Part shown: piece by piece, positions 6,586-41,953 of the stretch
Layout of the letters: every line of letters begins with the position of its first letter
Position numbering within the stretch: the stretch's first letter is position 1
DNA from: an uncultured Bacteroidota bacterium
GTDB taxonomy: Bacteria > Bacteroidota > Bacteroidia > Flavobacteriales > Flavobacteriaceae
NCBI GenBank assembly: GCA_902536935.1
Contig: CACAZM010000002.1
Location: 1-64,000 of the forward strand
Direction: 5' to 3'
DNA length: 64,000 nucleotides
Program-made: the position numbers and the translations under genes
The notes under the pieces: generated by a model
Database searches by the model: none
What the model saw: only the letters and a program-made list of their open reading frames with translations
Told to the model about the DNA's origin: nothing

Positions 6586-6606
6586 AATTATGAAAATTAA
6601 ATTCGG

Positions 6607-6990: not shown

Positions 6991-7002
6991 ATTAAGACAT
7001 AA

Positions 7003-7032: not shown

Positions 7033-7041
7033 TTATTGCAA
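7011..7041 (-). promoter_or_regulatory. Divergent promoter of the MerC-like/COG0523/phosphatase operon
   Basis: On the minus strand TTG (7041-7039), a 20-bp spacer and TATGTTTG (7018-7011) match the Bacteroidota consensus. The -33 element lies within the palindromic operator. The predicted start near 7004 precedes the ATG at 6990. Confidence 0.65.
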
Positions 7042-7055
7042 CTATGTCGCAATAA
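7033..7055. promoter_or_regulatory. Fur-family operator, 23-bp palindrome
   Basis: The outer arms TTATTGC (7033-7039) and GCAATAA (7049-7055) are perfect inverted repeats, and 9 of the 11 base pairs around the central A match. The length and 11-1-11 symmetry fit Fur/Zur operators. It begins right after the -7 box of the regulator gene and covers the -33 TTG of the divergent operon. Confidence 0.75.
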
Positions 7056-7062
7056 ATTTATT

Positions 7063-17783: not shown

Positions 17784-20700
17784 TTGATGAAATTTATACC
17801 AATTTCAAAAGTTTTTGTGCGTTCATTATTGTACGCTTTTGTTTTAGTTGCCAGCCTCAATCATTCTTGGAGCTATGGCAATTATATCAATGATGACATA
17901 TTAAAAAGCGTTAAATCATCAGCTACAGAATCTTCTTCAAATTTTAGTCAGCCTGAATCTTTGGACGGTATTGTCCATCATAATGCTGGTTATGGACGAG
18001 ACCAAAACGGGAACTATTTTTTTGCAATGAGTTTTGGGAATTTGGACTGGGGTCTTTTAAATGCCGAGGTTACAACTTATAGAGACGGAACTCCGATTCC
18101 ACAACATACTGGCACGCCAGAGACTTGGGCTAATCTAACAACGGGTGCCTGGGTCTGGGCTCAGGATGGTCAAGGTCCACAAAGAAAACTTTATAATTGG
18201 TACGCAATTATGGGTATTCATGATGCTGCATCATTGACTGAAACTAGTTTAAGAAAAGAATTTGCACCCGAAGGCTGGCGAGTTCCTACACAGGCGGATT
18301 GGGATAATTTTCTAAATCATTTAACAACAACAGCGGGTTATCAATCAACAGAAGTTGCTAAGGCTATAGCCTACCAACCTGACACACCGCAAAACAATTG
18401 CTACATAACTGGCACCCATGCTGCTTGGACAGATGCATCAACTTCTCCGGGATCTCCCGGTGATTATAATACTCCCAATAATGCTACCTGTTTTGGTGCT
18501 ATTCCATATGGATTTTATAGCGGCGATGCGGGTGGGCATTATCAACAAAACCAGCGTTCAGGTTTTTGGATGTCAGATAGTGAGTCAGGTGATAATGGAA
18601 AAATAGCTACAGTACACCACACCACCACCACACTTAATTTTCTATTAATTGGTAAGAATTATGGGTTTTCTGTACGATTTACTAGAGATGAACTCAATGA
18701 CCAAACTGCTCCTACAATTGATAGTGGTTCAGATTCTATAAGTGTTCCTGAAAATCAAACAGTCGTAGAAACTTACACAGCTAGTGAAGATGTTATTTGG
18801 GCAATTTCAGATACTGAGCCAGACTCTGATAAATTTGTGATATCAAATGATGGAGTATTGTCATTTGTTTCTGCACCAGATTTTGAGGCCCCTGATGATA
18901 ATAATAATGATCATACCTATGATATATCAATCTTCGCTGAAGATACGGCAGGAAACGAAAGTACTTTGTTTCCTCTTACAGTTACCGTAACAAATGTCGA
19001 TGAAATTGATCCAACTATCACAGATGGTCTAAGCTTTGTTACAATCGATGAGAATCAAACAGCTGTTGACGGTTACGCAGCGGATGAAGAAGTTACTTGG
19101 ACACTTTCAGGACCAGATAATGCTTTATTTGAAATTACACCTTCTGGACCAGCGATGACTGCTAATTTGAGTTTCATAACTGCACCTGATTTTGAAAATA
19201 AACTTGATACGGATACAAATAATATCTATGAATTAGATGTTGTTGCAACTGATGCTGCAGGTAACGCAGTAGCTATTCCTGTTTCTGTTACGGTTCAAGA
19301 TATTGATGAGGTTCAACCATTTATAACTGGTCCTGGCTCATGGGATGTTGATGAGAACATCACATTTGTATATACTTATGTATCAAATAAAGATGTAGCA
19401 AGCTGGACACTTTCAGGGGATGATAATGCTTTATTTGATATAACATCTACTTCATCAACTAATGCTGATTTGGAATTCAAAACTGCTCCTGATTTTGAGA
19501 ACCCAGTTAATGCAAATAATCAATACTCTTTGTCAATTAATTTAACAGACAACTCTGGATTTACAGCACAAAAAGCTGTAACAGTTAATGTTCTGGATGT
19601 TAATGATACAGGTCCAGTTATTTCTGGATCAGATACTGTTTCTGTCCCAGAGAACGAAGTAGTGGTTTCAACTTATACGGCAAATCAAACTGTTTCTTGG
19701 TCAGTTTCAGGAAATGATAGTAATTATTTTACTATTACAACAACGGGCGTATTGTATTTTAAAGAACTTCAAGATTTTGAAACCCCAGTTAATAATAACC
19801 AATATAGTTTGAATGTAGTAGCTACTGATACTTCAGATAATACGATTTCAAGTGAATTTCCAGTAACAGTAACACTTACAGATATTGATGAAATTAGTCC
19901 AGTAATTTCAGGACTTACTACTATAGATTATCAAGAGAATGTATCAGCTAATTTTACATACACTGCAAATGAAGCTGTTACTTGGTCATTATCAGGGAAT
20001 GATAGCGGTCTCTTTAGTATTTCAAACATAGGGGAGCTATCATTTAATTCAGCTCCTGATTATGAATCACCAGGCGACAGCGGAACAGACAATATTTATA
20101 ATGTAACAGTAAATGCTACGGATAGCTCTGGTAATACAAGTGATTTTTCTGTAACAATTACTGTAGCTGATGTCGATGATAGTAATCCAGTAATTACTGG
20201 TAATACTACAGTTTCAGTTCAGGAGAACCAAACAGTAGTTTCTACTTATAGTTCAAATGAAGCTGTTACTTGGTCATTATCAGGTACTGATAGCAGTTTA
20301 TTTAGTATTTCAAACACAGGTGAGCTATCATTCAATTCCTCTCCTGATTTTGAGTCGCCAGAAGATAATGGAGCAGATAATCAATATAATGTAATAGTGA
20401 CTGCTACAGACAGTTCCGGCAACTCTGATGATATATCTGTATCAATAACTTTAATAAATATTGATGAGGTTGGTCCAACAATCACTAATTCAGCAAGCAC
20501 GAGTACTCCTTCAGTAAATGAGAATCAAACTTATGTAGCAACTTTCAGTTCTAATGAGCAAGTTGCATGGTCAATTTCAGGAGCTGATAGCGGATTATTT
20601 AGTATTTCAACTTCAGAAACAGGGAGCACATTTAGTATCAATTCAAATTCAGCCCAACTTTCGTTCATTTCAGCTCCAAATTATGAGGCGCCAGCTGATA

Positions 20701-23700: not shown

Positions 23701-26700
23701 CACTTCCAGAAATTACATTAATAGGGAATTCAAATGAAGATATTGATGTTGGTTCTGTTTACATTGATCCCGGTGCATCTGCCACTGACAACTATGACGG
23801 GGATATTACAGACCTAATTGTTGTTTTAGGAAGTGTAGATCCTACTACCATTGGTACATACTATTTACAATATAATGTTACTGATAGCGAAGGAAATGAT
23901 GCTATTACTATGACTCGCACAATCAATGTTGGTGATCAAATTCCTCCTACAATCAGTCTGTTTGGATCACAATCGATCACTATTGAAGTTGGAAGTTCGT
24001 ACTCTGATAGTGGCGCTAGTGCAATAGATAATTATGATGGTAATATAAGTTCACTTATTCAAGTTTCAGGTTCTGTTGATCCATCTGTTGTGTCATTATA
24101 TACAATTGATTACGATATAACTGATTCGAGTGGCAACTCTGCGACTACTGTTACAAGAACTGTAAATGTAGTTGATACAACTAAACCTGTCATTAATTTA
24201 TCAGGAAATAGTTCCACTACCATTGAATCTGGATTAATTTATATAGATTCTGGAGCAACGGTTTCTGATAACTATGATTCTGGATTGACATATAATGTTG
24301 ATCTCAGCGTTGTTGATACATCGACACTTGGAACATATACTTTAACTTATTCAGCAACTGATAGTTCTGGAAACCAAGCAGATCCGATCTATCGTACTGT
24401 TGAGGTTATCGATACAACATTACCGGTAATTAACATTATTGGATCTTCAGTTATGAACGTTGAAGCAAGCCAGTCTCAATTTGATGAACCAGGTTTCACG
24501 GCTTCAGACTCATATGAAGGAAATATTACGCCCTCAGTTGTGACTTCAGGTGTAGTTGATATGCAGACTTTAGGAACTTACATTTTAAGATATAACGTTT
24601 CTGATAGTTCAGGAAATGCTGCAGTTGAAAAAACAAGAACCGTTACTGTCGATGACAATACATCACCATTAATCACAATACAAGGAAATGAAACAATGAA
24701 TGTTGAGTTAGGTTCAACCTTTATTGATCCAGGAGTTTCTGCTTTTGACAACTTGGATGGTGATTTAACAAATTCAATAATTATAGAGGGCAGTGTTGAT
24801 ACTTTTGTTGCAGGTGTGTATACCATAACATATAAAGTTGTAGATAGCCAAGGAAATGTAGCTCAACAAGTTACTAGGACAGTAATTGTTGGCTCTCCTC
24901 CTGTAATTACACTAGATGGTGACAACCCAATGACTTTAGAGGTTGGCACTGCTTATGTAGAACCTGGTGCAACAGCTTTGGATGATGATCAAGGAGATTT
25001 AACGAATCAAATTCAGATTTCAGGTGCAGTTGATGAAAACCAACTTGGTCAAAGTAATATTGTATATACAGTTGAGGATATAAATGGAAATATCACTAGT
25101 GCAACTCGTGTTGTAAATGTTGTTGATACCACGCCTCCAGTACTTGTGTTAGATGATACTTCAATAATTACAATCGAAGTAAATTCCCCTGAATATGTAA
25201 ATCAGACAACATTTACCTATAGTGATAACTATGACCAAAACCTTACTGATTCTGATGTAATAGTTACTGACAACATAAATGAAAATGTTGTTGGTGACTA
25301 CACAATTTCGTTTAACCTAAGTGACGATTCTGGGAATGCCGCAATAACTCAAATTAGACAAGTACAGGTCGTTGATACTCAGTCACCAACAATTACATTA
25401 ATTGGTGATACAAATGTATCGATTGAAAAAGGTTCATCATATATTGATGCAGGTGCAACAGCCGAAGATAATTATGATGGAGACATTTCTTCGCTAATAG
25501 TAACCACTAATGGTGTAAATACTGCAACAATTGGATCATATAATGTTAACTATAATGTTTCTGACTCATCTGGAAACGCTGCCCCAGTGGTTTCAAGAAC
25601 AGTAAATGTTGGTCCTGATGTCAATGCGGGATCTGATATAACTGTTTGTGTGGAAGCCACAATCAATATTGGCTCTAATTCCAATGATTTGTCTTATGAT
25701 TACCAATGGACAGCCTCACCTGACCCAACTGCTGCAAATGGACCAACTCTCAATAACCCAACAACACCAGTCACTCAAGTAACTGTATTTACAACTACGC
25801 AATTTACATTAAGTGCTTATGAATCAGGAGTTCTAGTTGGTTCAGATGTTATTGTAGTTACCGTCATTGATAAACCGTTGGCTACTGTTGCTGCTGATGT
25901 AACGATTTGTGAAGGGGATAATGTTCAGATAGGTTCTGCTTCAGTTCCTGGTCATACTTATCAGTGGACTTCAAGTCCTGCTGGATTTTCATCTTCGATT
26001 GCTAATCCAACTGTATCACCAAGTGCAACTACAACCTACACGCTTGTAGAAACGATAAATGCTACACCCGGATGTACTGCTACAAGTTCAATAACTATTT
26101 CAGTTGAAGAGCCTATTAATTTAAATGTTGGGATTGATACAACTATTTGTGAAAGCGAAGTTGCTACTGGATATCGCTTCGATGACGCGACTTCATCGTC
26201 TTCAAATGCAACCTATCTCTGGCAAGCTTTGGGTGGAGATGGAACTTTTGATAATGACTCGGATCTAAATGCTACTTATTTTCCTGGTACAACAGACATT
26301 TCTAATGGCAGTGTAGTTCTTCAACTTACAGCTACTTCTACTACGGGTGTTTGTACTTCCCCTGTTACAGATGAACTTACCCTGATTATAACACCTTCAG
26401 CATCTGTTGACGCTGGGGTTAGTGCTCTTGTATTGTGCGAAAACGAGTCTATACAAATATCAGGTGCCGCTGCCCAGTACTATGATCCAAACTCCATTTC
26501 TTGGACTAGTTCAGGGACAACTGGTACAATGACGGGTAATAACACACTTAGCCCAATATATACACCTTCTGCAAGTGATGTCGCCGCTGGATCTGTAACC
26601 TTGACACTATCAGTATTGCCCCTTTCTCCTTGTGACGTCAGCGGCCCAATAACCGACTCGGTTACGATCAATCTAGTCACAGCACCTAGTGTAAGTGTTC

Positions 26701-29700: not shown

Positions 29701-32700
29701 CATTTATTGACTCATCTACAGTATCTATTTTACGCGGAGATATAAATTCTGATGGGGTGGAGGAATATGCAACCGAGTTTTGTGCTTCTTCAGACTATAG
29801 TTTCACTGATGATCAAATTATTGATGGTCAGGCAGACACTTATAGCTGGACAACCAGTGGGGATGGAACATTTTCTGCAGCTGACGAAAAAGCACCCACA
29901 TATACACCCGGTGATTTTGATAAATCAAGTGGGACAGTGACTTTAACTCTCACTGTTGCTGATGCAGCTGGCTGTACAACGGACTCAGATAGTATTACTA
30001 TTTCTGTAATTGCTGAGCCAACATTAGACTTATCAGCATCTGCTTCATCTGTCTGTTTTGGTAGTGATGTGCAGTTAACAGCAATTGCTCAAAATTATAG
30101 TTCAATAAATTGGCAAATTACTAGCGGTACTGGTCTGATAATTTCTGGGGGCAACACACTAACCCCAATTTATCAGCCATCCTCAGATAGTGACACTGTT
30201 GTTCTAGAAGCCACGGTCATTGGTCAAAATCCATGTACAGAATCTGTAACAGAAAGTATCACTATTCAAGTAACGCCAAATCCAGAAATAACAAATTTCC
30301 CAACAGATTATGAAATATGTTTTGATGAAAATATTCCTGTTAATGGTGTAACAACAACTGGGGTTGAGTCAAGTGTGGAATGGACCTCTGATGGGGACGG
30401 TACTTTTGACAATACTTCTTCTCTAAACCCAAGTTACTTCCCATCGTCAACTGATATTGCAAATGGATCTGTTACGTTAACGATGCGAGCGATTGCTGAT
30501 AGCCCATGTAGCAGTGCAGTTGATGATACTGCTTCATTTGTGGTTACTTTAACCCCAGCACCAATAATAACAATGTCAATATCTGACACAGTATGTGAAG
30601 ACAGTAATTATTTCGTTTCAGACGTCAGTGTAGAAAATGTAGTTTCCTACGCTTGGACTGCAGTTGGAGATGGAACATTCCAAGATACAAACACCCTGAC
30701 TCCTACATATTTACCTGGAACAAATGATTTGGCTGCAGGTACTTTCACACTGACATTAACTGCCCAAGGAAATGGTATTTGCCCAGAAGTAATTGCTACT
30801 AAAGAAGTAACAATAATTCCAACTCCGATTATCGAATTGGGGGTTGATACAGCTGATTATTGTACCTCACCAGATCCAAACAGTTTTGATAACCCGATTA
30901 CCATAGCCGCACAAACCATACAGAATGTTAGTGCAATAGAGTGGAGGACTTCGAGTGATCCAACTGACCCAACAGCTCAGATAAATCTAAATAGTGATAA
31001 TTCTGCTACTTATTATCCATCTCAGCAAGATTACGATAATGGACAGGTAACCATTACTCTAGTAGGTTTCCCAATAGACCCGTGCGCTGATTTAGTTGAG
31101 GATAGTTTGATTTTATCATTTGCAGAGCCACCAGCAGTGGACGCTGGTCCTGATCAAACAGTTTGCGAGGATATTGCAGATGTACAACTTAATGGTACAG
31201 CGTCACAATACGATACCATCACTTGGACAACATCCGGTAACGGAACATTTACTGGAAATAACAATAACATTGAAGATCCAATTTATATTCCAAGTATACA
31301 AGATTTGGAAGCTGGATCAGTAACCCTCACGGCAACTGCTATTGGAGATATCAATTGTACCAATGCAGCTGATGATGTGGTCATTACATTTGCAAGAAAT
31401 CCTCAGGTTGATGTGGGTGTTGATCTTAGTTTATGTGAGGGCGATGTAGTCAACTTTAATGATGTAACTGTGGTAGTAGGAACATATTCCTCATTATCAT
31501 GGGTAACAACCAATGGTTTAGGCACCTTAAGCGGTGAGCAAACATTAACTCCGAGCTATACACCAGCACCTGGAGAAACAGGTCAAATTGACTTTGTGTT
31601 AACGGTTCAGCCTCAAGCCCCTTGTACTACAGCTGAAATTGTTACAAAATCTGTTATATATGTAAGTCAAGCATCTGCCGATGCAGGGCCCGATTTAGAG
31701 GCTTGTCAAGCTGATGGTGACATCACAATCGCAGGAGCAAGTGTTGCCAACAGTGAAGGACCCACCTGGAGTGTAATCACTGGTAGTGGGTTACTTGTCA
31801 ATCAAAATGACATTTCTCCGACTTATACCCCTTCCAACCAAGATTGGGTCAATGGCCAAGTGATTTTGAGGTTAACCGCTAATGCAAATCCAGGCTGTTC
31901 CGATGTCTCGGATGATTTGGTTATTTCCTTAACTCCAAGCCCAATTGTTGATGCTGGAATTGATGTAAGTGTGTGTAATAATAGTTTATATACTACCACA
32001 ACTGCTTCTGTTCAATATGCCGACAATTTTGCATGGTCAACACCTGATGGAACAGGAACACTTACTTCTTCCGCTAATGACACAGTTGCGATCTACACAC
32101 CTGGCGCTGATGAGTCTGGAATCGTTACACTTGTCCTAACTGCTCAATCAAATGGTTCATGTACCGAAGTCGTTACAGATGAAATTCTTCTTACGATTAA
32201 TCCTGCACCAACTGCAGATGCAGGTGTTGATCAAACCCTTTGTACATCAAATAACGAAATTGTATTATCTGGGGCTGTAACCAATGAAGCAAGTTTTGCT
32301 TGGACTGCAAACCTTGCTGATGGGTCTGCTGGCTCAGGAACATTTACCCCAAATAATGATGTGAGTACAACTTATAATCCATCACCAACTGATATTGCAA
32401 GTGGTTCTGTTATATTGAGTTTAACAGCAGTTGGACTTGACGGATGTATAGACTTTACCGACAGTATGGTAGTTAGTTTTGAACCTCAGCCAATTGTAGA
32501 TGCTGGTACAGATGCTTCAATTTGTGAAGGTGAGTCATATGATTTGACAAATTCCTCACCTAGCTATTCATATGGTGTCAGTCCGGAATGGACAATCATT
32601 GGAGGTGATGGGAATTTTAGCGGTAACATTAATAGCAATATTCTTGAGCCTGTTTATACACCTGGACCACAAGACATTATTGATGGTGCTGTTACTTTAC

Positions 32701-35700
32701 GATTAACGCTTGACCCAATTGATCCTTGTACAGAGTCAATAAGTGATGATGTGGTTATTCTAATATCATCAGCACCAACAGTCAGTGTAATTAACAGCTT
32801 TGACATCTGTGAAGGGCCATTCACTGTTACAGGAACAACAGTAGAAAATGCTGGTTTGGTTGAATGGTCAATCGTAGATGGTCAAGGTTCACTTGCTTTT
32901 GAGAATCAAATCGAACCTATATACACTACCAATCCAGCCGATGTAGGTGCTTTAGGACCCGTTATTCTAAAGGTTGAGATCTTTGGAATAAATGGATGCA
33001 ATACTACTTCAGCATCAGAATTTGTTACTTTGAACATAAGCCCTGCTGGTGAATTAGATGCTGGACCTGACATGACTATTTGTGAGGACTCAACAACATA
33101 TACTTTTTCAAATGGTGCCTCTTCTTCAAATGTTCAAAATATTCAGTGGACACATAACGGCCTTGGTTCTATTACAAACGGACAAGGTTCACTCATCCCG
33201 ACTTATACTCCAGCAAGTGGAGAAACCGGTACAATTACTTTTACGGTTACTGCAGATGAAATAACTCCTTGTGTAAATTCTTTAACAGATACTGTTAGTC
33301 TTACAATTATTGAAAAGCCTACTGCTGAGGCAGGAGAAAGTTATACAACATGCGCTGGTCCAATCAACTTAAACGGAGTTGTAGGGGGTGATGTAGATAG
33401 TATTCAATGGTCAGGGGGGAATGGCTTGTTTGATGATCCAACAACTGGAGCAAATGTATCTTCAAATCTAATTACAACTTATTACCCAAGCGTAGAAGAA
33501 ATTGGACAAGGTTTTGTGAGTCTTATATTAACTGCTAATCCTGTTGCTCCATGTAGTCCAGCATATTCAGATCTTGTAACCATCTATTTTGAAGATGCAC
33601 CACAGGTAAATGCAGGGCCTGTTAATGCTTCAATTTGTGAGGGGGATACTTATCAATTAGACCAAGCAATTGCATCTAACTTTACTTCATTCACCTGGAC
33701 AACTTCTGGATCTGGTACCTTCTCACCTACAGAGCAAACACTACAACCAGTTTATATTCCTTCGGAGACTGATGTTGTCAACGGAGTTGTTACTCTTCGA
33801 TTGACTGCTACTGGCAACAGTGATTGTGCTGATTCATTTGATGAATTAGAATTAATAATTGACAAACAGCCTAGTGTTGTTATTTCAGAAACAACTTTAG
33901 AGCATTGTGAAACACAACCTCTAATTTTAAGTAATGTGACTGCTTTACATTACGATCCTAATACAGTTCAATGGGTTTCGAGTTCAGGTGCTGACGGATA
34001 CTTTACTGACGACACAGCACTTAATCCCGAATATATTCCTGGGCCTAATGATCTTGCCAATGGGGTGACACTAACTATTTCTCTTAGTGGCGAAGAATTT
34101 AGAGCTTGTAGCGATCAACTTGCTACAGACTCAATTGATGTGATCTTCTCGCCAGCGCCAATTGTTGATGCTGGTCTTGACCTAGAAATATGCGAAGGCA
34201 TTTCAGAAATTTCTTTATCGACAGCATCTACAAGCCAGACAACTTCGCTAATGTGGACCACAACAGGAACAGGTACATTTGATGATGCTTCTAGTTTAAA
34301 TGCACGGTACATTCCTAGTACTCTTGATTTCTCTTTAGGTACAGTAACCCTTACTCTAACTGGATACAATGAAGGAGTTTGCAGTCAGAACTCAGATACC
34401 ATGACTTTGACACTAACTCAAGATGTCGTAATTATTACATCTCAAGATTACTTTACATTTTGTGATAGTGAAACTGTCATTCCTATTACTGGTATCAGTC
34501 TTTTAAATGTAGATACCACTGCAGGTTCACCAAACGTGGAATGGTCGATTATTACAGGCCAAGGGACATGGCAAAACTCGAATACAGAGGTTAATCCTAC
34601 GTATATTCCTGGAGGTAATGACTATTCAACTGGAGTAACATTGTTATTGACTGCTTTTGGTGAAGGAGATTGTAATTTTATTGACACCCAAGAAATTAAC
34701 ATAGAATTTGAACCAGAAATCATTGTCAATGCAGGTACAGGCGGTACGATTTGTGAGGGACAAGATTTTCAAGTGTTTGGCGCGCAGGTATTTGGAACCA
34801 CAGAATACTCATGGACTACTTCAGGTGATGGATTCTTCAACAACGCAAATCTTGTAAATCCAATATATACACCTGGTCCGCTAGATGAAGAAAATGGATA
34901 TATAACCCCAGTTACATTAACTTTAACAGCAACTGGAAATGGAAGTTGCCCAGGGAAGTCAGAGTCTATCCAACTTCTTGTAGAGCCAAGCATAAGCGTT
35001 TTTGCTGGGGATGATGTTACAATTTGTACCGATCAGGTTTTTTATACGATTTCTGATGCCTCAACAAATAAAACGAATCCAGTCGTTACTTGGACAACGC
35101 TTAGTGGAAGTCAAGCCGGATTTGTCGATCCAACTACAGTCAATACATCTTACCAACCACTACAAGAAGATTATGATCGAGGCTATGTCACACTAATACT
35201 AAGAGGTGCTGGTTCAGGAAACTGTACAAATAGCATTCAGGATACGATGACAATTTTCTTATCTGAGGCCATTGATGCCTTTGCCGGTGAGGTTGATAGT
35301 GTCTGTTATCCTGAGAGTTATATTGTACAAGATGCTGTTATTAATAGCAGTCAAGACAGTTATTCTTCATACTCATGGACGATTATAGATGGGGCAGGAC
35401 AGCTCCTCAATCCAAATTCCTTGACTCCTGAATATGTACCGAGCGTATTAGATAAAACCAATCCAAATGGTGTTCGTCTGGGCTTAAATATTATTCCGTC
35501 AAATACAGGTAACTTTAGCTGTACACCACCTCCGCCATTTATTAAAGTAATTTATATATCTGAAGATTTGGTGGGTACAGGTTCAATTTCAGGAAACACT
35601 ATAGCTTGCGAAGGTACTTCGAGCACTTATTCTGTAACAGGCTTAACGGGAGCTGTAGATTATCAATGGGACATACCAACAGGAGCAACAATTGTTTCTG

Positions 35701-38700
35701 GTGATGGAACATCCACTATACTCGTATCATTTGATGAATTTAGTCAAGATGAAAATTCTGAAATAACAGTATTAGCATCAAATAATTGCCCAGGGCAGAT
35801 ACAGTTCATGACACTTCCAATTGAAATCCAAGCAGATCCAGAACTTATTTTAACTTCTGCTAATGAATCAAATCAAGTATTGTGTTTTAATGATAATTTA
35901 AACCCAATCGAATATATCTTTGCTGGCGGAACGGATGATAGCCAAATTTCAATTGCTTGGTCTGTTGGAGGTGTAAACGTGTCTGCTCCACAAGGAATTA
36001 CAACCACTGTAACAGCTAATTCTTTCACTATATCTGGGGTTGCTAATGAAAACCTTACTTCTGATACAGTTTATTCTTATGAACTTACAGCCTCTGTTAG
36101 TGGATGCACAACACTCACAGTTGTTGAGTCAGGATCAATCACATTATCTGCTAGCCCATCGCTTGTAATTCAAGATCCAGCTACTAATAATCAGACTTTC
36201 TGTGAGGGAATACCAATTGCAGATATTGAATATACACTAGAAAATGGTGCTGATAATGTACAGTTTCAATGGACAAGTCAGTATGTACCTAATGGCTTAA
36301 CCCAAACCCTATCTTCTGGTATTTATTCAATAACAGGGTTACCTGATGCACAAGCAGCCACAAGCGTTTATACATATCAAATCATCCCTGTTAATTCAGT
36401 TACAGGTTGTGTAGGAGCGCCAACCACTGGCTCAATAACAGTAAATGCATTGTCAAGCTTAGTCTCGATTAATCCTGGGTCTGAAAGCCAATCGGTGTGT
36501 GAAGGAAACCCGATAACACCTATCGAATACAGCGTGGGCAATGCTGTTTCAGGAATTAATCTGACTTGGACAAGAGACGGTACTTCAATAACAGGAAACC
36601 CACCTGGAATCGGATATAACCTCAACGCCGGTCAGCTAGTTATTGGAGGAAATGTTACAGAAAATATTACAGCGACAACAACCTACAGCTATAATATTCA
36701 GACCTCTGGCGGATTATGCGGTAGTGGTAATGTAAATGGTACGATTGTAGTTAATCCAGGGCCGAGAATTGAATTGGCAGCTTCAACTGTTGGTTCTCTG
36801 ACTCAAATTAGATGTGAGGGTGATAATATTGATGATATTGTTATAAACTTACTTGATGGTGCATCCAGTCCAGGTGTAACTGGTTTACCAGCTGGTGTTA
36901 GTTATTTCTATGATTCAGTTGCCAATACATTGACCATTTCAGGAACCCTTGATGCGAGTAATCCTAATGATAATTATAATTACACAGTTACAGCGAGTGG
37001 CTCGTCAGGTGGTTGTTCAGCATCAATCTCAGGTGTTTTAACCATTAGTCGTGAAGATGTACTGACTCCTATGTCAGAGATTTCACAGTCTGTTTGTGAA
37101 GGAGAGGAAATTGATCTGATTCGATACGATTACTCAGGTGGTGCGGTAGGAGTAACCCTTTCTTGGATGATCAATGGGGTACCATCTGCTACTACACCAT
37201 CAGGGCTTGTGGTTAGCAATGCTGACGGGATACTAACAATTTCAGGTACTCCGTCTACCAATATAACCACATCTTCAGAGTTAGGTTATACTGTTACCAC
37301 GACAAATAGTGGTTGTACGCCTGCAAAAGAGTACACAGGCACAATAAGTATTTCACCTCAACCAATACTTTTGATCAACAGTGGCACAAATACACAAACG
37401 ATATGTGAGGGTGTAGCCATGACGGATATTGTTATTGACGCTGCACAAGGAGCCAATAATGCAATTATTTCTTGGGATGTACAGCCCCCAGGAATCCTTG
37501 GGCAATTTGATGCAACGACAGCACAATTCACAATTTCCGGTACGCCATCTGGCATTAATGATGACACTACATATAACTATAGTGTAAAAGCTATAAACTC
37601 TATTGATAGCTGTGAATCAGATACCTTTACAGGAAGCATAACGGTTCTCAATGGACATACTTTACAATTGCTTTCAGGTTCTTCTTCTGTGAATCAGACA
37701 TTTTGTGAGGGTGAAGAACTGCCATTCCCAGTTTCTTATGAATTTGGTGGAGGTGCTCTCGCAGCCCGCGTATTGGGTCTGCCACCCGGATTGAATTGGT
37801 CGATTACAGACAATCGAATAACAATTTCTGGTACACCTACTGTAAACGTCAGTGCGACATCAACTAATACATATACATACACAGTAGAAACTATAGGCGC
37901 ATCTTGTACATCGATAACAGAAACAGGCGTGATTGATCTAGTGCCCAATCCATTGATTCAACTGATTGGTGGATTGAATACACAATCCGTTTGTGAGGAT
38001 GAAGCGATAGTTGATATTGTTTACAATACAATAGATGGTGCTGAAAATGTTGACTTGACTTGGGACTCACAACCCAATGGAATTTATGGTCAATTTGATT
38101 CGACTACCAATCAGTTTACAATTACTGGAACACCTACTGGACTGGTGGAAGACAAAGTATATAACTACACAATACAAGCTGTTAATTTATCAAACAATTG
38201 TGTTTCATCAGAACTGACAGGTTCAATATCCGTGCAAAACGGACATGATTTAAAACTTCTTTCGGGATCTACTTCAACCAATCAAAGTTTGTGTGAAGGT
38301 CTCGAACTCTCACAAGATATTGTCTATGAATTTAGTGGTGGTGCAAACTCTGCTCGAGTTCTTGGACTACCACCAGGAATAGGATGGACAGTTACTGGTA
38401 ATGTGATTACGATTTCAGGGTCTGCATCAGAAAATGTCACATCTCAAACGGATTATATATTTACTGTTGAAACACTTGGAAACAATTGTTTATCAGCTTC
38501 TTTGACCGGTCAGATTACAATTAATCCAGACGCAGAAATTACTTTATCTACACCGTCGTCAACAGCAAATCAGTTTATCTGTGAGGGAGAATCTATTGAT
38601 CCAATCACTTATACTTTCGGCGGGGGAACCGTAGATGCCGTACCATCTGGATTACCTCCTGGAATTACCGGAATCTATAATTCTTCGACACGTATCATGA

Positions 38701-40946
38701 CGATTACTGGTACCCCAACTCAAAATGTTGAAATTGACACTTCATATAACTTTACGGTTCGGGCGCTTAACGATCAAGGTTGTGAAAGCCCTGAACTTAC
38801 AGGAGAAATTACTGTAAAAGCAAATGCTGAACTTACTTTACTCAGTTCAACAAATACAATTGATCAAACTGTTTGTGTTAATTCAAATATATCAGATATA
38901 AGAATTCGATTTAAAAATAGTAGTGTTCCTTCAGCTAATAACTTACCAAGTGGTCTGAGTTCGGAAGTTGTAGGTACTGATGTTCTTCGAATATTTGGTA
39001 GTGTTTCTGTTGGAGGACCATATACCTTTGATGTAATTGGTACAAATACAAATGGTTGTAGCTCTACAGCTGTTACTGTTCAACTCACAGTTGTTCCTGA
39101 TTATTCGATCAACCCAACAAAAGTTGTTCTTGATATGAATGACCCAGCTAACGGTACCGATGAGTCCCTAGTTAAAAACATCTCATGTTACGGAAACAGA
39201 GACGGTGAAATTATGGTCAACTTATCTAATAGCAGTTCAAGTCTAAGCTATATTTATTCATGGTCTGGACCAAGTAACTATGCAAACACAACTCAAAGCA
39301 ATCATATTAAAAATTTACGGCCTGGCAACTATACTGTAAGTGTTTTTCCACAAGGCAACTCAAGCTGTCCAGTGACACAGTCATTTACAATCCTGCAACC
39401 ACAACCTACACAAATTGAAACAAATACTATTTCTCCAGTTTCTTGTACAGGTTCTGATGATGGCTTAATATCTGTTTCCATTACTGGTGGTAACTCATCA
39501 TATTATAAGAATTACATATGGGAAGTTCTTAAGGAAGAGGAAAATTGTGTTACTTATACAATCCGATTACGTGATGCTGATAATGATGGTATTTTTGATA
39601 TAACTGATGCGGATTTAGATAATGACGGTGTAACTGACCCCAATGTAACTGATTCTAATAATAATGGAATAATCGATGAGGCAGAAAGTGGCAGCTTCAC
39701 TTACAGTGTTATAAGGTATCAAAGCTGTGATGGTACATTTGTCACAGATAATAAACAAAGTTTAAATGAGTTTTCATTAAACGGTACTTATCAAATATGT
39801 GCAATTCCAAATACAGTTTCTCCCGACACTAGTTTCGCTGGATTTGACCACGATTTTGATGCAAGTACTGCAGATATCTCCTCAATCGTATATACAGGTG
39901 GTACATCGTCTTGTTCGTCGGGTACATGGCAAGAAATTTCTCGTTTGAAAGGGACAACTTATGCCGATAACTTATTACCTGGATTATACAGATTAACAGT
40001 TGTTGAAGGTCCTGATTTGAATGATATTGAGTCTCTTGATATTGATGATCTTAGAAATGATTTGGAAGTTTGCATAACAGATGAAATTTTTGAGCTTCCA
40101 AAAGATCAAATCTTGTATGGCTCTGTAAGTGTTGATGATTCTTATTGCTCACTGTCTGGTGGATATATTGATATTGATGTCAACCAAAGTGCAGGTCAAA
40201 TATTCTTTAAATATGATGGTGTTATTGTTCCAAGTAGCGATGTTAGTATAATAGCTTCAGAGTTTGGCGTCAATACTTATCGGGTTCTGATTAGTGCACC
40301 TATAAGTGATGCTTCATTTGAAATTGAAAATGCTAATGGTTGTGGAATTGTTGTTGCCCAGGATCTTCTTGATACTACAGTACTTACTCCCGTTATAAAC
40401 TTTACAAGCCCTGAGCTTGAGAAATACGGAACTATCAGTGAAAGGAGTAATGTTCTCTTTACTCTTGCAAATAACACAAGTTACTTTAATGTTGAATGGG
40501 ACTTTGGAGATGCTTCACCTATTGTTGCTGGAGAGAGAGTTTCCCATCAATATTTTGCTGATGGCACATATTCAGTAACAGTTTATGTGTACAATGCGTC
40601 TGGGTGCTTTACAACAGCCACACAGGAAATTATAGTCGGTAAGGGCTACACCATTTTAATGCCAAACGCATTTAGCCCAAATGGGGATAACATCAATGAG
40701 ATCATTGGTCCAGTATTTACTGGCTTAAAGTCTGTTGACTTCTTTGTTTATAACAAGCTAGGAATACTGGTTTACCAAGAGTCTGTTTCTGAAACCAACT
40801 TATCAGCAGCTGGTACTATTGAAATTAATGGTTGGGATGGTACAAATTCTGACCCAGCATCCAATTTCTATGTTTATAAAATAATAGGGGTGCGTATAAA
40901 TGATGAGGTCGTAACTAAAACCGGCACAATATTTTTAATCGAATGA
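17784..40946 (+). CDS. Giant multidomain T9SS-secreted surface adhesin (7,720 aa)
   Basis: A single uninterrupted frame, roughly 0.8 MDa. In order: signal peptide (1-30); FISUMP domain (about 110-302, with WANLTTGAWVW, KLYNWYA, EGWRVPTQADW and YGFSVRFTRD); 7 cadherin-like repeats (309-1012); 20 DUF5011-like Ig repeats (1013-2609); about 36 PKD/Ig-like repeats usually opening AGxDxxxCEG (2610-5925); one Ig-like domain (5926-6017); 11 PKD-like repeats of the QxxCEG...SGTP type (6018-7104); an SprB-like segment (about 7105-7240); three Asp-rich calcium loops (7263-7303); a PKD domain (about 7556-7622); and a T9SS type-B C-terminal domain (about 7623-7720, opening PNAFSPNGDNIN). It is likely displayed on the cell surface or in the matrix for adhesion or gliding. 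The overlapping PorP/SprF gene supports this. No catalytic domain is visible. A TAATTTAG at 17756-17763 may be the -7 element. Confidence 0.95.
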   Translation: MMKFIPISKVFVRSLLYAFVLVASLNHSWSYGNYINDDILKSVKSSATESSSNFSQPESLDGIVHHNAGYGRDQNGNYFFAMSFGNLDWGLLNAEVTTYRDGTPIPQHTGTPETWANLTTGAWVWAQDGQGPQRKLYNWYAIMGIHDAASLTETSLRKEFAPEGWRVPTQADWDNFLNHLTTTAGYQSTEVAKAIAYQPDTPQNNCYITGTHAAWTDASTSPGSPGDYNTPNNATCFGAIPYGFYSGDAGGHYQQNQRSGFWMSDSESGDNGKIATVHHTTTTLNFLLIGKNYGFSVRFTRDELNDQTAPTIDSGSDSISVPENQTVVETYTASEDVIWAISDTEPDSDKFVISNDGVLSFVSAPDFEAPDDNNNDHTYDISIFAEDTAGNESTLFPLTVTVTNVDEIDPTITDGLSFVTIDENQTAVDGYAADEEVTWTLSGPDNALFEITPSGPAMTANLSFITAPDFENKLDTDTNNIYELDVVATDAAGNAVAIPVSVTVQDIDEVQPFITGPGSWDVDENITFVYTYVSNKDVASWTLSGDDNALFDITSTSSTNADLEFKTAPDFENPVNANNQYSLSINLTDNSGFTAQKAVTVNVLDVNDTGPVISGSDTVSVPENEVVVSTYTANQTVSWSVSGNDSNYFTITTTGVLYFKELQDFETPVNNNQYSLNVVATDTSDNTISSEFPVTVTLTDIDEISPVISGLTTIDYQENVSANFTYTANEAVTWSLSGNDSGLFSISNIGELSFNSAPDYESPGDSGTDNIYNVTVNATDSSGNTSDFSVTITVADVDDSNPVITGNTTVSVQENQTVVSTYSSNEAVTWSLSGTDSSLFSISNTGELSFNSSPDFESPEDNGADNQYNVIVTATDSSGNSDDISVSITLINIDEVGPTITNSASTSTPSVNENQTYVATFSSNEQVAWSISGADSGLFSISTSETGSTFSINSNSAQLSFISAPNYEAPADSNSDNVYELIVIATDSSTNTTEYPMSIAVTDQAEAFNTNTPPTITLNGPNPQIVTLGNSYIELGAVSDDTEDGPLTDQIVINGVSLINTNVVGTYTVQYSVTDSDGNIVSVNRTVEIIDTTPPQINLNGNSIISIEVGTTYNELGATATDNYDDDTTITSNISISGSVNTATLGSYTVSYDVTDASGNSAPTLIRTINVVDTTIPVLTLLGTSPVSIELNGTYSDAGAAASDNYDDDVSITTLISLSGTVENTIVGSYTLTYSVSDSSNNQAIPITRVVNVEDNTKPVITLLGNTNVTIEVGTNFTDPGVVASDNYDNDSSLTGLISVSGSVDTTELGAYLLTYSVSDSSGNSADPVDRTVQVVDTTAPIISLNGNSSINHTYQTSFVDPGATASDNYDTNLSSLIVVSGSVNENTLGAYNLLYDLNDSSGNSAATVTREVTVLDDLPPVITLTGDSVVYLAIGDSYVDDGATANDNYDGVLTGAIVTSGTVTTSTVGTYTISYNVSDSNGNQAAQVTRTVLVGTPPSITLQGDNPTEIEIGSNYIELGAIASDPEDGDLTNSISISGVVNTNVLGTYQIQYSVTDSEGNTTFLNRTVQVVDSTKPTILLIGDSTISVEVGSSFIDPGATASDTNDGDITSSIIVSGAFDLNSTGTYALTYNVSDSAGNSADSVTRSIIVGDTTPPQFSLNGNSNLNIDLNSVFVDPGAIAIDSYEGDISSSVNIIGNVDTSTIGSTTLFYNVSDSAGNAANQLVRIVNVVENTLPIISLIGDASVSIEVFSSYIDQGATASDNYDGNITNAIVSTGTVDTSSIGVTTIRYNVTDSSGNSAVEVTRTVTVEDTTAPILSLIGDSNMSLELGGSFNDPGATAADNFDGDITNNIVVSGTVDVNIAGSYTIAYNVSDSQGNFATQIIRTVVVGTPPSINLQGDNPQTIQYGEAYTELGATSSDVEDGDLTSSISITGSVNSSILGTYNIQYSVTDSSGNTTIVQRLVNVVDTTLPEITLIGNSNEDIDVGSVYIDPGASATDNYDGDITDLIVVLGSVDPTTIGTYYLQYNVTDSEGNDAITMTRTINVGDQIPPTISLFGSQSITIEVGSSYSDSGASAIDNYDGNISSLIQVSGSVDPSVVSLYTIDYDITDSSGNSATTVTRTVNVVDTTKPVINLSGNSSTTIESGLIYIDSGATVSDNYDSGLTYNVDLSVVDTSTLGTYTLTYSATDSSGNQADPIYRTVEVIDTTLPVINIIGSSVMNVEASQSQFDEPGFTASDSYEGNITPSVVTSGVVDMQTLGTYILRYNVSDSSGNAAVEKTRTVTVDDNTSPLITIQGNETMNVELGSTFIDPGVSAFDNLDGDLTNSIIIEGSVDTFVAGVYTITYKVVDSQGNVAQQVTRTVIVGSPPVITLDGDNPMTLEVGTAYVEPGATALDDDQGDLTNQIQISGAVDENQLGQSNIVYTVEDINGNITSATRVVNVVDTTPPVLVLDDTSIITIEVNSPEYVNQTTFTYSDNYDQNLTDSDVIVTDNINENVVGDYTISFNLSDDSGNAAITQIRQVQVVDTQSPTITLIGDTNVSIEKGSSYIDAGATAEDNYDGDISSLIVTTNGVNTATIGSYNVNYNVSDSSGNAAPVVSRTVNVGPDVNAGSDITVCVEATINIGSNSNDLSYDYQWTASPDPTAANGPTLNNPTTPVTQVTVFTTTQFTLSAYESGVLVGSDVIVVTVIDKPLATVAADVTICEGDNVQIGSASVPGHTYQWTSSPAGFSSSIANPTVSPSATTTYTLVETINATPGCTATSSITISVEEPINLNVGIDTTICESEVATGYRFDDATSSSSNATYLWQALGGDGTFDNDSDLNATYFPGTTDISNGSVVLQLTATSTTGVCTSPVTDELTLIITPSASVDAGVSALVLCENESIQISGAAAQYYDPNSISWTSSGTTGTMTGNNTLSPIYTPSASDVAAGSVTLTLSVLPLSPCDVSGPITDSVTINLVTAPSVSVPTGLSICEGENVPLTGATVSNASSFTWTDSSGGSFSVTGPNPADWVYEPNQTAIDNGGTVLTLTATPTSPCADDPSYSVTLPVVINKNPVVDAGPSNQILCEGLNPISGATADFADTLTWSTSGDGFFTTANSISPFYTPGPNDLTVGAVTLTLTATPQGACTNPVLDTVNFSVSKQAVVSAGGDAEVCEGDSYIFGSAAITDTSGGALSPTSTLWTTSGSGTFDNATMVNPVYTPSTADISAGQVVLTLTVEQNGCPDESDEMILTIVPQVSANAGLDLSICQDGSGIIAGASVTPNTTFIWTVISGAGTLQNETDINPVYQPSAGETGEIVLRLTVDPLQIDGVDCGNPSTDDVSIFIEPLPIVSAGSDIVICEDETYTFDNTVSATDFNSLTWSTQGDGSFDDNNALKPTYFPGPNDKANGGVILQLEASSNAPCTSTASDVMFLEITRKPVINAPSTINYCVDSSPIALDMVTANYYDTIQWTSSSGNASGTFSDNTVLNPDYTPSQHDINSGEILLTISATETSCPFDTEAVIRVVFVDLPTVDAGETPVEICEDSTYQLNGTVTGTSSQTWNTSGTGTFSNQTSEDPVYTPSAADIAAGVPIRLTLTAVSTSVCEAEISDFIDLTFAPSPIMNIGPDRTLCVGEDLVINLTAGSDVAHVDTSTYAWASTGNGFFNSVNTLSPTYSPSEDDISNGSVTISLTADALSPCGGTIQDDFVFTIMTEPTVNAGPDISMCETGGNLEIVAGDVTNYSSFIWTNESGTTGSQIVNNSSLTPTFIPGPADIANGFATLRLTAYPITPCATPATDDVIITIAPQPVVSVGSNNTICEGEEFIFLANIASVSNESGFSWSSDGGGVFANANTLTPTFTPSAAEITAGQAIISLTAQPISPCADPVVDTMTLIIQQLPLVEAGNNAVLCESDASYQTLTASVSNESAINWTTSGSGTFDSQTVINTVYTPSINDRSLGFVTLTLTATPIAPCEPGNIVSDTITLTFIDSSTVSILRGDINSDGVEEYATEFCASSDYSFTDDQIIDGQADTYSWTTSGDGTFSAADEKAPTYTPGDFDKSSGTVTLTLTVADAAGCTTDSDSITISVIAEPTLDLSASASSVCFGSDVQLTAIAQNYSSINWQITSGTGLIISGGNTLTPIYQPSSDSDTVVLEATVIGQNPCTESVTESITIQVTPNPEITNFPTDYEICFDENIPVNGVTTTGVESSVEWTSDGDGTFDNTSSLNPSYFPSSTDIANGSVTLTMRAIADSPCSSAVDDTASFVVTLTPAPIITMSISDTVCEDSNYFVSDVSVENVVSYAWTAVGDGTFQDTNTLTPTYLPGTNDLAAGTFTLTLTAQGNGICPEVIATKEVTIIPTPIIELGVDTADYCTSPDPNSFDNPITIAAQTIQNVSAIEWRTSSDPTDPTAQINLNSDNSATYYPSQQDYDNGQVTITLVGFPIDPCADLVEDSLILSFAEPPAVDAGPDQTVCEDIADVQLNGTASQYDTITWTTSGNGTFTGNNNNIEDPIYIPSIQDLEAGSVTLTATAIGDINCTNAADDVVITFARNPQVDVGVDLSLCEGDVVNFNDVTVVVGTYSSLSWVTTNGLGTLSGEQTLTPSYTPAPGETGQIDFVLTVQPQAPCTTAEIVTKSVIYVSQASADAGPDLEACQADGDITIAGASVANSEGPTWSVITGSGLLVNQNDISPTYTPSNQDWVNGQVILRLTANANPGCSDVSDDLVISLTPSPIVDAGIDVSVCNNSLYTTTTASVQYADNFAWSTPDGTGTLTSSANDTVAIYTPGADESGIVTLVLTAQSNGSCTEVVTDEILLTINPAPTADAGVDQTLCTSNNEIVLSGAVTNEASFAWTANLADGSAGSGTFTPNNDVSTTYNPSPTDIASGSVILSLTAVGLDGCIDFTDSMVVSFEPQPIVDAGTDASICEGESYDLTNSSPSYSYGVSPEWTIIGGDGNFSGNINSNILEPVYTPGPQDIIDGAVTLRLTLDPIDPCTESISDDVVILISSAPTVSVINSFDICEGPFTVTGTTVENAGLVEWSIVDGQGSLAFENQIEPIYTTNPADVGALGPVILKVEIFGINGCNTTSASEFVTLNISPAGELDAGPDMTICEDSTTYTFSNGASSSNVQNIQWTHNGLGSITNGQGSLIPTYTPASGETGTITFTVTADEITPCVNSLTDTVSLTIIEKPTAEAGESYTTCAGPINLNGVVGGDVDSIQWSGGNGLFDDPTTGANVSSNLITTYYPSVEEIGQGFVSLILTANPVAPCSPAYSDLVTIYFEDAPQVNAGPVNASICEGDTYQLDQAIASNFTSFTWTTSGSGTFSPTEQTLQPVYIPSETDVVNGVVTLRLTATGNSDCADSFDELELIIDKQPSVVISETTLEHCETQPLILSNVTALHYDPNTVQWVSSSGADGYFTDDTALNPEYIPGPNDLANGVTLTISLSGEEFRACSDQLATDSIDVIFSPAPIVDAGLDLEICEGISEISLSTASTSQTTSLMWTTTGTGTFDDASSLNARYIPSTLDFSLGTVTLTLTGYNEGVCSQNSDTMTLTLTQDVVIITSQDYFTFCDSETVIPITGISLLNVDTTAGSPNVEWSIITGQGTWQNSNTEVNPTYIPGGNDYSTGVTLLLTAFGEGDCNFIDTQEINIEFEPEIIVNAGTGGTICEGQDFQVFGAQVFGTTEYSWTTSGDGFFNNANLVNPIYTPGPLDEENGYITPVTLTLTATGNGSCPGKSESIQLLVEPSISVFAGDDVTICTDQVFYTISDASTNKTNPVVTWTTLSGSQAGFVDPTTVNTSYQPLQEDYDRGYVTLILRGAGSGNCTNSIQDTMTIFLSEAIDAFAGEVDSVCYPESYIVQDAVINSSQDSYSSYSWTIIDGAGQLLNPNSLTPEYVPSVLDKTNPNGVRLGLNIIPSNTGNFSCTPPPPFIKVIYISEDLVGTGSISGNTIACEGTSSTYSVTGLTGAVDYQWDIPTGATIVSGDGTSTILVSFDEFSQDENSEITVLASNNCPGQIQFMTLPIEIQADPELILTSANESNQVLCFNDNLNPIEYIFAGGTDDSQISIAWSVGGVNVSAPQGITTTVTANSFTISGVANENLTSDTVYSYELTASVSGCTTLTVVESGSITLSASPSLVIQDPATNNQTFCEGIPIADIEYTLENGADNVQFQWTSQYVPNGLTQTLSSGIYSITGLPDAQAATSVYTYQIIPVNSVTGCVGAPTTGSITVNALSSLVSINPGSESQSVCEGNPITPIEYSVGNAVSGINLTWTRDGTSITGNPPGIGYNLNAGQLVIGGNVTENITATTTYSYNIQTSGGLCGSGNVNGTIVVNPGPRIELAASTVGSLTQIRCEGDNIDDIVINLLDGASSPGVTGLPAGVSYFYDSVANTLTISGTLDASNPNDNYNYTVTASGSSGGCSASISGVLTISREDVLTPMSEISQSVCEGEEIDLIRYDYSGGAVGVTLSWMINGVPSATTPSGLVVSNADGILTISGTPSTNITTSSELGYTVTTTNSGCTPAKEYTGTISISPQPILLINSGTNTQTICEGVAMTDIVIDAAQGANNAIISWDVQPPGILGQFDATTAQFTISGTPSGINDDTTYNYSVKAINSIDSCESDTFTGSITVLNGHTLQLLSGSSSVNQTFCEGEELPFPVSYEFGGGALAARVLGLPPGLNWSITDNRITISGTPTVNVSATSTNTYTYTVETIGASCTSITETGVIDLVPNPLIQLIGGLNTQSVCEDEAIVDIVYNTIDGAENVDLTWDSQPNGIYGQFDSTTNQFTITGTPTGLVEDKVYNYTIQAVNLSNNCVSSELTGSISVQNGHDLKLLSGSTSTNQSLCEGLELSQDIVYEFSGGANSARVLGLPPGIGWTVTGNVITISGSASENVTSQTDYIFTVETLGNNCLSASLTGQITINPDAEITLSTPSSTANQFICEGESIDPITYTFGGGTVDAVPSGLPPGITGIYNSSTRIMTITGTPTQNVEIDTSYNFTVRALNDQGCESPELTGEITVKANAELTLLSSTNTIDQTVCVNSNISDIRIRFKNSSVPSANNLPSGLSSEVVGTDVLRIFGSVSVGGPYTFDVIGTNTNGCSSTAVTVQLTVVPDYSINPTKVVLDMNDPANGTDESLVKNISCYGNRDGEIMVNLSNSSSSLSYIYSWSGPSNYANTTQSNHIKNLRPGNYTVSVFPQGNSSCPVTQSFTILQPQPTQIETNTISPVSCTGSDDGLISVSITGGNSSYYKNYIWEVLKEEENCVTYTIRLRDADNDGIFDITDADLDNDGVTDPNVTDSNNNGIIDEAESGSFTYSVIRYQSCDGTFVTDNKQSLNEFSLNGTYQICAIPNTVSPDTSFAGFDHDFDASTADISSIVYTGGTSSCSSGTWQEISRLKGTTYADNLLPGLYRLTVVEGPDLNDIESLDIDDLRNDLEVCITDEIFELPKDQILYGSVSVDDSYCSLSGGYIDIDVNQSAGQIFFKYDGVIVPSSDVSIIASEFGVNTYRVLISAPISDASFEIENANGCGIVVAQDLLDTTVLTPVINFTSPELEKYGTISERSNVLFTLANNTSYFNVEWDFGDASPIVAGERVSHQYFADGTYSVTVYVYNASGCFTTATQEIIVGKGYTILMPNAFSPNGDNINEIIGPVFTGLKSVDFFVYNKLGILVYQESVSETNLSAAGTIEINGWDGTNSDPASNFYVYKIIGVRINDEVVTKTGTIFLIE
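18708..20819 (+). repeat. Seven cadherin-like repeats in the giant adhesin
   Basis: Each unit is about 100 residues and shows the pattern VxENQTxVxTYxxNExVxWSLSGxDxxLFxIS, then FExPxD, then VxATDxxGN and a VxDxDE linker. Asp/Glu positions fit calcium-stabilised cadherin folds. No cysteine is present. Confidence 0.85.
20820..25610 (+). repeat. Twenty DUF5011-like Ig repeats in the giant adhesin
   Basis: Units average 80 residues: PPxITLxGxxxxxIEVGxxYxDPGA, then ASDNYDGDIT, then SGxVDxxxxGxYxxxYxVxDSSGN, then RxVxVxDTT. They are cysteine-free. Repeats 1, 7, 12 and 18 carry a distinct GDNP/ELGA subtype and mark a higher-order period of 5 to 6 units. Confidence 0.88.
25611..35558 (+). repeat. 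About 36 cysteine-bearing PKD/Ig-like repeats in the giant adhesin
   Basis: Units average 92 residues: VDAGxDxxICEGxxxxL, then FxWTTSGDGTFxxxxxLxPxYTPSxxDI, then GxVxLTLTAxxxxPC. Most units hold two cysteines, one in CEG and one in xPC, placed for an intradomain disulfide. The copy count is by eye and may be off by one or two. Confidence 0.85.
35835..39095 (+). repeat. Eleven PKD-like repeats of the QxxCEG...SGTP type
   Basis: Units average 99 residues: NQxxCEGxxIxxIxYxxxGGA, then GLPxGI, then FTISGTPxxxxxxxTxYxYTVxA, then a second cysteine. Units 6-7 and 8-9 form a duplicated two-domain block. Confidence 0.82.
39570..39692 (+). other. Thrombospondin-3-like calcium-loop segment of the giant adhesin
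   Basis: Three consecutive Asp-rich loops at residues 7263-7303, DADNDGIFD, DADLDNDGVTD and DSNNNGIID, match TSP3/EF-hand-like calcium-binding loops. They lie between the repeat stack and the C-terminal sorting region. Confidence 0.75.
40649..40946 (+). other. T9SS type-B sorting domain of the giant adhesin
   Basis: The final 98 residues open with PNAFSPNGDNINEIIGP and contain FFVYNKLGILVYQ, WDGT and FYVYKI. These are hallmarks of the gliding-motility-associated C-terminal domain that directs export by the type IX system. Confidence 0.92.
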
Positions 40947-41953
40947 AAAGCTTTATAAGTAGACATATCATTTTATTTATATTGTTTGCATTTCCATTTG
41001 GGCATGCACAAGAAGGTTTTATCAATACGTCTCGTAACATGCAGTTTATAAACCCGAGCTATCACGGAATTAATATGGTTTCAAAAGCAGGTGTAAATTA
41101 CAGCCGTTTTGACTTTGGAGAGGGGACATCATATATTGACAACAAGTATTTATACGGAAATTTTGCTTTTGAAGATATGAATTTCAGTATTGGACTAGAT
41201 GTTAATTCATTTAGTTTAACAAATTTAGGCTTGTCAGAAAATCAAATTGACTTAAGCTATATCTATAAAATTCCGGTAAACTTTGACACCTATATTCTTG
41301 GTGCATTAACCCTTGGGATTGGTTCTCAGGATATTGACAAAAGTTCTTTGATTTTTCAAGATCAAATCGATATGACATTGGGAACAATTTCTGGGGTTTC
41401 TAGAGATCCTTTGGCAGATTTTTCACCATCAACCAATTATTTCGATATCGGAGCATCGGCTTTAGTTTATAATGAAAGGTTTTTGATTGGATTGAGTTTA
41501 GATCATATCAACACACCCAATGTTTCTTTTAACAACGAATCAGATTTTGAAAAGGAAATTGCATTTTCTCTTCAAGCTGCACTCGAGTTTAATGTTAACC
41601 AGTACGGGAGAAGCTTCCTACCGGATTACTCTTACATGATGATGTATTTATATGTTCAGCAAGCGGGTGAAACCTTGAGAATCTACTCCTCTCAAGAATT
41701 GCAAATGGATGGATTTACCTTAGGTTTATTACAATCTCTTGCCAAGTATAAAGACAACAATTCTCTTGAATTTGGATTGATATCTGGATTTTCATCAGAA
41801 AATTATCGTGTGGATTTAACATACACTTTCCCCAGTTCTCAAACAAATTTTAACCCCCCCTCTATATTTCAAATTGGTGTCACTATGGATTTTAACCGAT
41901 TCTCCAGAAACAAAAGGGGTAACTACAAACGGCTGAGTACCGATAATATGTAG
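40943..41953 (+). CDS. PorP/SprF family type IX secretion membrane protein
   Basis: A predicted outer-membrane beta-barrel of 336 residues. A signal peptide (about 1-22, ending GHAQ) precedes the family opening EGFINTSRNMQFINPSYHGIN. Alternating beta-strand segments follow, including the NPPSIFQIGVTMDFNRF region. SprF is needed for secretion or surface attachment of the adhesin SprB in Flavobacterium johnsoniae, and family members are commonly encoded just after type-B cargo genes. Here the ATG overlaps the giant adhesin stop (ATGA, 40943-40946), so translation is probably coupled and the adhesin is the likely client. Confidence 0.9.
   Translation: MKSFISRHIILFILFAFPFGHAQEGFINTSRNMQFINPSYHGINMVSKAGVNYSRFDFGEGTSYIDNKYLYGNFAFEDMNFSIGLDVNSFSLTNLGLSENQIDLSYIYKIPVNFDTYILGALTLGIGSQDIDKSSLIFQDQIDMTLGTISGVSRDPLADFSPSTNYFDIGASALVYNERFLIGLSLDHINTPNVSFNNESDFEKEIAFSLQAALEFNVNQYGRSFLPDYSYMMMYLYVQQAGETLRIYSSQELQMDGFTLGLLQSLAKYKDNNSLEFGLISGFSSENYRVDLTYTFPSSQTNFNPPSIFQIGVTMDFNRFSRNKRGNYKRLSTDNM

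Follow-up and report, generated by a model that had tools for sequence, protein, structure and literature searches.

The window, a stretch of 64,000 nucleotides from an uncultured member of the Flavobacteriaceae, contains an open frame 7,720 codons long, which raises the questions of whether so long a repeat gene is intact and, if so, whether its product is a gliding leg or a fixed attachment of the cell. The reading favoured here, with a probability of roughly two in three, is that the protein is a type-B cargo of the type IX secretion system (T9SS) and acts as a carrier-anchored, static tether for attachment, with an exchangeable head, and not as a gliding leg.

The frame at 17784-40946 (+) has no interruption, against 300 to 914 stops in each of the other five frames over the same stretch, and the description of the locus in the earlier note as a single giant gene is thus borne out. 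There is a TTG at 17784 and, directly after it, an ATG at 17787. In the relative G006, aligned at the start, the TTG is present and the ATG is not, and the start is therefore uncertain by one codon. The parts of the gene, with the carrier gene that follows it, are these:

17784-40946, + strand: the giant adhesin gene in full, 7,720 codons counting from the TTG or 7,719 amino acids from the ATG at 17787
17787-17963, + strand: N-terminus with a probable Sec signal peptide, residues 1-59, read directly from the sequence
17964-18698, + strand: FISUMP domain (Fib_succ_major, PF09603), residues 60-304, by Pfam; an optional head module
18699-20810, + strand: seven cadherin-like domains, with no cysteine and with 110 acidic and 6 basic residues
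20811-25619, + strand: 20 Ig-like domains (PF16403), with no cysteine
25620-35573, + strand: 36 PKD-like domains, with exactly two cysteines in 35 of them and one in the first
35574-39113, + strand: second PKD-like class, made up of a PKD_6 domain and of 11 repeats that have two cysteines each
39114-39386, + strand: SprB repeat (PF13573), 32.6 bits against a cut-off of 28
39387-40406, + strand: linker containing two calcium-type DxDxDG loops (at residues 7263 and 7276), by motif
40407-40661, + strand: PKD domain adjoining the sorting domain, by domain scan
40662-40943, + strand: type-B T9SS C-terminal sorting domain (CHU_C, PF13585), over its cut-off, with TIGR04131 under its own
40943-41953, + strand: cognate PorP/SprF-type outer-membrane carrier, with no cysteine and with a 4-nt overlap (ATGA) with the adhesin stop

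By iterated HMMs there are 7 cadherin domains (residues 305-1003), 20 Ig domains (PF16403, 1009-2609), 36 PKD-like domains (2612-5929), and 11 PKD-like domains of the second class (6021-7109), with an additional PKD_6 domain at about residues 5930-6020 that brings this second class to 12 in all. The Pfam scores are 72.1 bits for Fib_succ_major (cut-off 33.9), the match spanning residues 83-298, 1121.6 for Bact_surface_Ig-like, 75.4 for HYR, 49.3 for Cadherin, 56.6 for PKD_6, and 47.6 for PKD_4, all over the cut-offs. The NCBIfam FISUMP model, TIGR02145, is below its cut-off on the giant (36.1 against 41.65), and the cadherin stretch matches solved protocadherins (5dzy, E 2.1e-6). The order of domains by HMM and Pfam supports the previous proposal of a T9SS-type giant adhesin in which the repeat classes follow one another from FISUMP to the sorting domain. 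CHU_C scores 28.7 bits on the last 180 amino acids (cut-off 27) and 29.8 in the genome search, and in the half-protein scan both CHU_C (24.5) and the SprB repeat (27.5) are slightly under their cut-offs. The type-B sorting model TIGR04131 is far under its cut-off on the giant (16.8 against 35), which leaves CHU_C and the carrier as the basis of the type-B label. The carrier itself has 71.3 bits for PF11751 (cut-off 22.3) and is slightly under the cut-off of TIGR03519 (86.7 against 90.55). All 17 of the carrier relatives for which the surroundings were fetched have a long frame with a matching terminal sorting domain directly upstream.

The earlier suggestion of distinct zones along the filament holds for composition, there being no cysteine in the 27 cadherin and Ig domains and exactly two in 46 of the 47 counted PKD-like domains. 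A model of the PKD-like domain, drawn from 33 of the 36 repeats in the window, has a pLDDT of 96.8, and those 33 repeats have in common two invariant cysteines and an invariant tryptophan; each cysteine pair would form a disulfide within its domain. The DxDxDG loops of the linker would bind calcium. The best solved-structure match to the two-cysteine domain model is the base domain of GhpA, the grappling-hook protein of Aureispira sp. CCB-QB1 (Foldseek E 4.6e-4; 9fly_A, Z 10.1, rmsd 2.1 over 83 residues), which might suggest a device of predation or capture that seizes other cells. The likeness is at the level of the fold only, however, with PKD domains of unrelated proteins close behind (Z 9.5 and 8.9) and no sequence match in a profile search up to E 1, and a capture function of this kind is considered very improbable.

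Several of the relatives have contigs that start or stop inside the locus, as would be seen if the frame belonged to a repeat gene that is decaying or mis-assembled and has no present function. Against this, every one of the 36 PKD-like and 11 second-class repeats pairs in order with its counterpart in G006 and G005, which are separate assemblies of two other species, and the mean identity to the interspecies partner is 79-93%, as opposed to at most 55% to repeats of the same protein. No tandem array was found inside the giant gene by Tandem Repeats Finder, also with a period of up to 2,000, and exact internal repeats are no longer than 31 nt. Collapse or expansion of the assembly at the repeats, which had been named as grounds for refuting the giant, is unlikely on this sequence evidence. 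The Ig domains are less orderly, with the partner at the same position being the best match for 13 of the 20 in G006 and 17 of the 20 in G005, and G010 and G007, which are more distant, do not keep the one-to-one order over most of the protein. There are 20 Ig domains in the window's genome and in each of these four relatives; the PKD-like domains number 36 in the window's genome, G006, and G005, and 33 in G010 and G007. In all segments for which dS is finite, dN is the smaller of the two (ratios of about 0.03-0.42, many dS being near saturation), consistent with purifying selection on the giant type-B adhesins. The start region and the neighbours are also conserved, the upstream order of dnaE, a thioredoxin gene, and tRNA-Asp being common to G006, G010, and G007. 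Decay or mis-assembly is already contradicted by the repeat order, the dN values, and this conservation, and is hardly credible.

The thioredoxin-like gene, named from its WCGPC motif, encodes 105 amino acids (17130-17447, +) between dnaE and tRNA-Asp, and a thioredoxin-like frame is at the same place in G006, G010, and G007. The DNA polymerase III alpha subunit (12725-17035, +) has a DnaQ-like exonuclease domain fused at its N-terminus. The C-terminus of ribosomal protein S16 (11889-12572, -) is extended by a long acidic stretch, which is encoded by tandem repeats of 63 bp (3.3 copies with 92% matches).

A smooth gradient of conservation from the cell to the tip was expected in the giant protein and is not seen. 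The identity to G005 and G006 is instead a mosaic, with blocks of low identity in Ig domains 15-20 against both and in PKD-like domains 13-24 against G005, and the orientation of the filament is for this reason not argued from conservation.

The head of the protein is more variable than its stalk in its occurrence. FISUMP and the cadherins are absent from the orthologues in G006, G010, and G007, the N-termini of which are complete and in which the signal peptide leads straight into the Ig domains, while in G005 five or more cadherins precede the contig end. FISUMP relatives occur within other giant frames of the genus. In G012 there is a second giant type-B adhesin gene (G012:C16, L077-L079), 13,623 codons long between stops, which has an internal FISUMP near residue 4,000, DUF11-type repeats, and a PorP/SprF carrier behind it. 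In the window's genome this second giant is most likely split, with pieces of 8,253 and 3,212 amino acids at the ends of contigs C8 and C5; together with the giant gene of the window, these occupy about 57 kb, some 3.7% of the 1.56 Mb assembly. The fact that the head is optional in the orthologues, and that FISUMP lies in the interior of the second giant, indicates that FISUMP is a movable module. The earlier placing of FISUMP at the distal tip thus stands in part: the domain is N-terminal here, which would place it distally on a filament held by its C-terminus, but it is missing from three orthologues and is not terminal in the second giant.

A C-type-lectin fold for FISUMP was considered and rejected. 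The single-sequence model has a pLDDT of 32, the profile comparison with GldK gives a probability of 1.2, and the sole solved-structure match is at chance level (E 0.57), with none when a profile is used. The idea of this fold came from PMC4159848, where Fib_succ_major is listed as a domain that DGR target proteins can contain. No diversity-generating template for FISUMP was found within the window, no FISUMP relatives were found in viral contigs, and the word FISUMP was not found in the literature searched.

As a giant adhesin the protein is of a known kind. It resembles SprB-SprF of F. johnsoniae in having a giant filament protein (SprB is given as 6,497 amino acids in PMC9870892), a type-B sorting domain, and a co-encoded PorP/SprF carrier (as described in PMC9143113). 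It differs from that system, SprB being known here by description only, in that the carrier has no C-tail cysteines, that GldK has no Cys343, and that there is a FISUMP-cadherin head. A pair likened to it by description is Fjoh_3952-Fjoh_3951, a type-B cargo with its own PorP/SprF carrier that is reported to be static on the surface (PMC12618676). In size it is like the giant Ig-domain adhesin of Mobiluncus mulieris, for which 7,651 residues, 51 Ig-like domains, and stalk domains with internal cross-links, including disulfides, are described (PMC10619420), although that adhesin is from a different bacterium and the repeat domains here are others.

The earlier note had also proposed assays of gliding. 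In F. johnsoniae, as reported in PMC12635249, the C-tail Cys-X-Cys of SprF is tied to Cys343 of GldK, the same GldK cysteine holds PorG, and Cys343 is called completely invariant across GldK/PorK. According to the same source, replacing the cysteines of the SprF tail or GldK Cys343 leaves most adhesins nearly stationary, though still surface-exposed (less efficiently in the GldK case), and brief track contacts remain with a cysteine-less SprF. Some type-B adhesins of F. johnsoniae are described as static (PMC12618676).

There is no C-tail cysteine in any of the 23 PorP/SprF carriers of the genus, which are of three types; this count is without L115 and L116, which are near gldJ and most likely PorV, and G011, one of the 13 genomes, has no PF11751 match. 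The genus genomes are 58-86% complete, so that any of them may have a cysteine-tailed SprF that escaped notice. Cysteine-tailed carriers had seemed to be the rule outside the genus, being found in 14 of 14 distant matches (L017-L030), but that set is biased by its query, and in nine outgroup genomes tail cysteines are absent from 28 of the 30 carriers compared (the 30 of 68 matches that were available as loci). As carriers of this type are common outside the genus, they are no proof alone that the cells cannot glide, and since they are ordinary, it is on GldK and PorG that the unusual part rests.

GldK of the window's genome (G000:C2:71709-73301, L117; TIGR03525, 515.8 bits against a cut-off of 350) is encoded 7.7 kb past the window end. 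It has an Asp at the position of Cys343, and its lone cysteine is that of the lipobox. Across the genus this position is Asp in 11 of 12 sequences and Glu in the other (a count without G002, and with the codon of G007 read from the neighbouring frame because its GldK is frameshifted in the assembly). It is Cys in 21 of 21 outgroup sequences, G077 and G107 having no GldK match, and in 78 of the best 80 of at least 590 relatives from named genomes, the remaining two being Tyr (L184) and X. The numbering was checked on the GldK of F. defluvii, which has cysteines at 17, 285, and 343. Among the matches listed, the best named GldK is 54% identical. The protein with Tyr is from Bacteroidetes bacterium casp40-mb.157, in the genome of which, which may be incomplete, neither PF19573 nor PF11751 was found; this is possibly a second, independent loss of the cysteine at the track site.

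The PF19573 proteins, which we take to be PorG, have no tail cysteine in 11 of 11 genus members, where the tail ends in GWFIEGLL in 10 and GWFIRGLL in one. Their length and tail motif agree with PorG as described in PMC12635249. The tail cysteine is present in 21 of 21 outgroups and in five more sequences from four named genomes; G007, G009, G145, and G149 are missing from these figures because no PorG was found in them, and G152 was omitted. Both the GldK and the PorG cysteine are kept in S4_Bin_METABAT__332_1, which has the closest GldK among the named matches listed. A single event in the ancestor of the genus is thus the simplest account of the loss, and the 12 genus genomes do not count as independent evidence of it. 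The literature searched on the cysteines of GldK, SprF, and PorG contained no report of a loss of this kind. From these sequences, the T9SS of the genus is apparently without disulfide coupling at all three partner sites, GldK, PorG, and SprF.

The secretion system is otherwise represented. SprA is found in 11 of the 13 genus genomes, GldJ in all 13, and GldL in 12 (over the cut-off in eight); GldK, GldL, GldM, and GldN are in a row on the window's contig, with GldL at 66.8 bits against a cut-off of 68.3. PorU and PorV are present, and there is a type-A cargo in G012. In F. johnsoniae without the PorG cysteines, type-A export and gliding are reported to be blocked and SprB export partly kept (PMC12635249), from which it follows that export in the genus is either coupled in another way or weaker. 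That the cysteine pairs of the stalk are kept argues that extracytoplasmic disulfide formation as such has not been lost.

The presence of GldJ, GldK, GldL, GldM, GldN, and SprA would fit a true SprB-like gliding adhesin, with a carrier that rides the GldJ/GldK track non-covalently, perhaps after the covalent link was swapped. The new GldK residue and the PorG tail are nearly constant in the genus, as if taking a new role. With GldJ in every genome, a track may still exist, and the residual contacts reported for cysteine-less SprF mean that non-covalent movement is possible; both points weigh against a static reading. However, all three cysteine sites are gone, not one of the genus carriers having the tail cysteine, and the cysteine-less state does not glide in the model organism, as reported in PMC12635249. 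Gliding by this adhesin is therefore unlikely, and a role in gliding is not supported.

The static reading is preferred because carrier and track are both without the coupling cysteines. In such a tether, Sec would export the adhesin, and the T9SS would pass it through the outer membrane and hand its last domain to its own PorP/SprF carrier, so that it would be held on the surface by its C-terminus. The stalk of some 76 beta-sandwich domains would then be cysteine-paired near the cell and cysteine-free and very acidic farther out, where the cadherins are probably calcium-dependent, and the exchangeable FISUMP-cadherin head would lie at the free end and bind a ligand. The protein would serve as a long static tether for attachment and not as a gliding leg. 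Whether this extends to the whole genus, as a T9SS with no GldK-PorG/SprF disulfide, a non-covalent energy chain, and giants that are static holdfasts, is evenly balanced.

The fixed order of the stalk repeats, together with the optional head, suggests that the make-up of the stalk is under selection and that binding changes at the head. The unexpected part is the joint loss of the track cysteines. The track model of 2025 rests on the disulfide of GldK Cys343 to SprF and PorG, as set out in PMC12635249, and a genus in which all three partners are without their cysteines puts that model to the test in nature. The joint loss supports the pairing, and it raises the question of how type IX export works without the disulfide.
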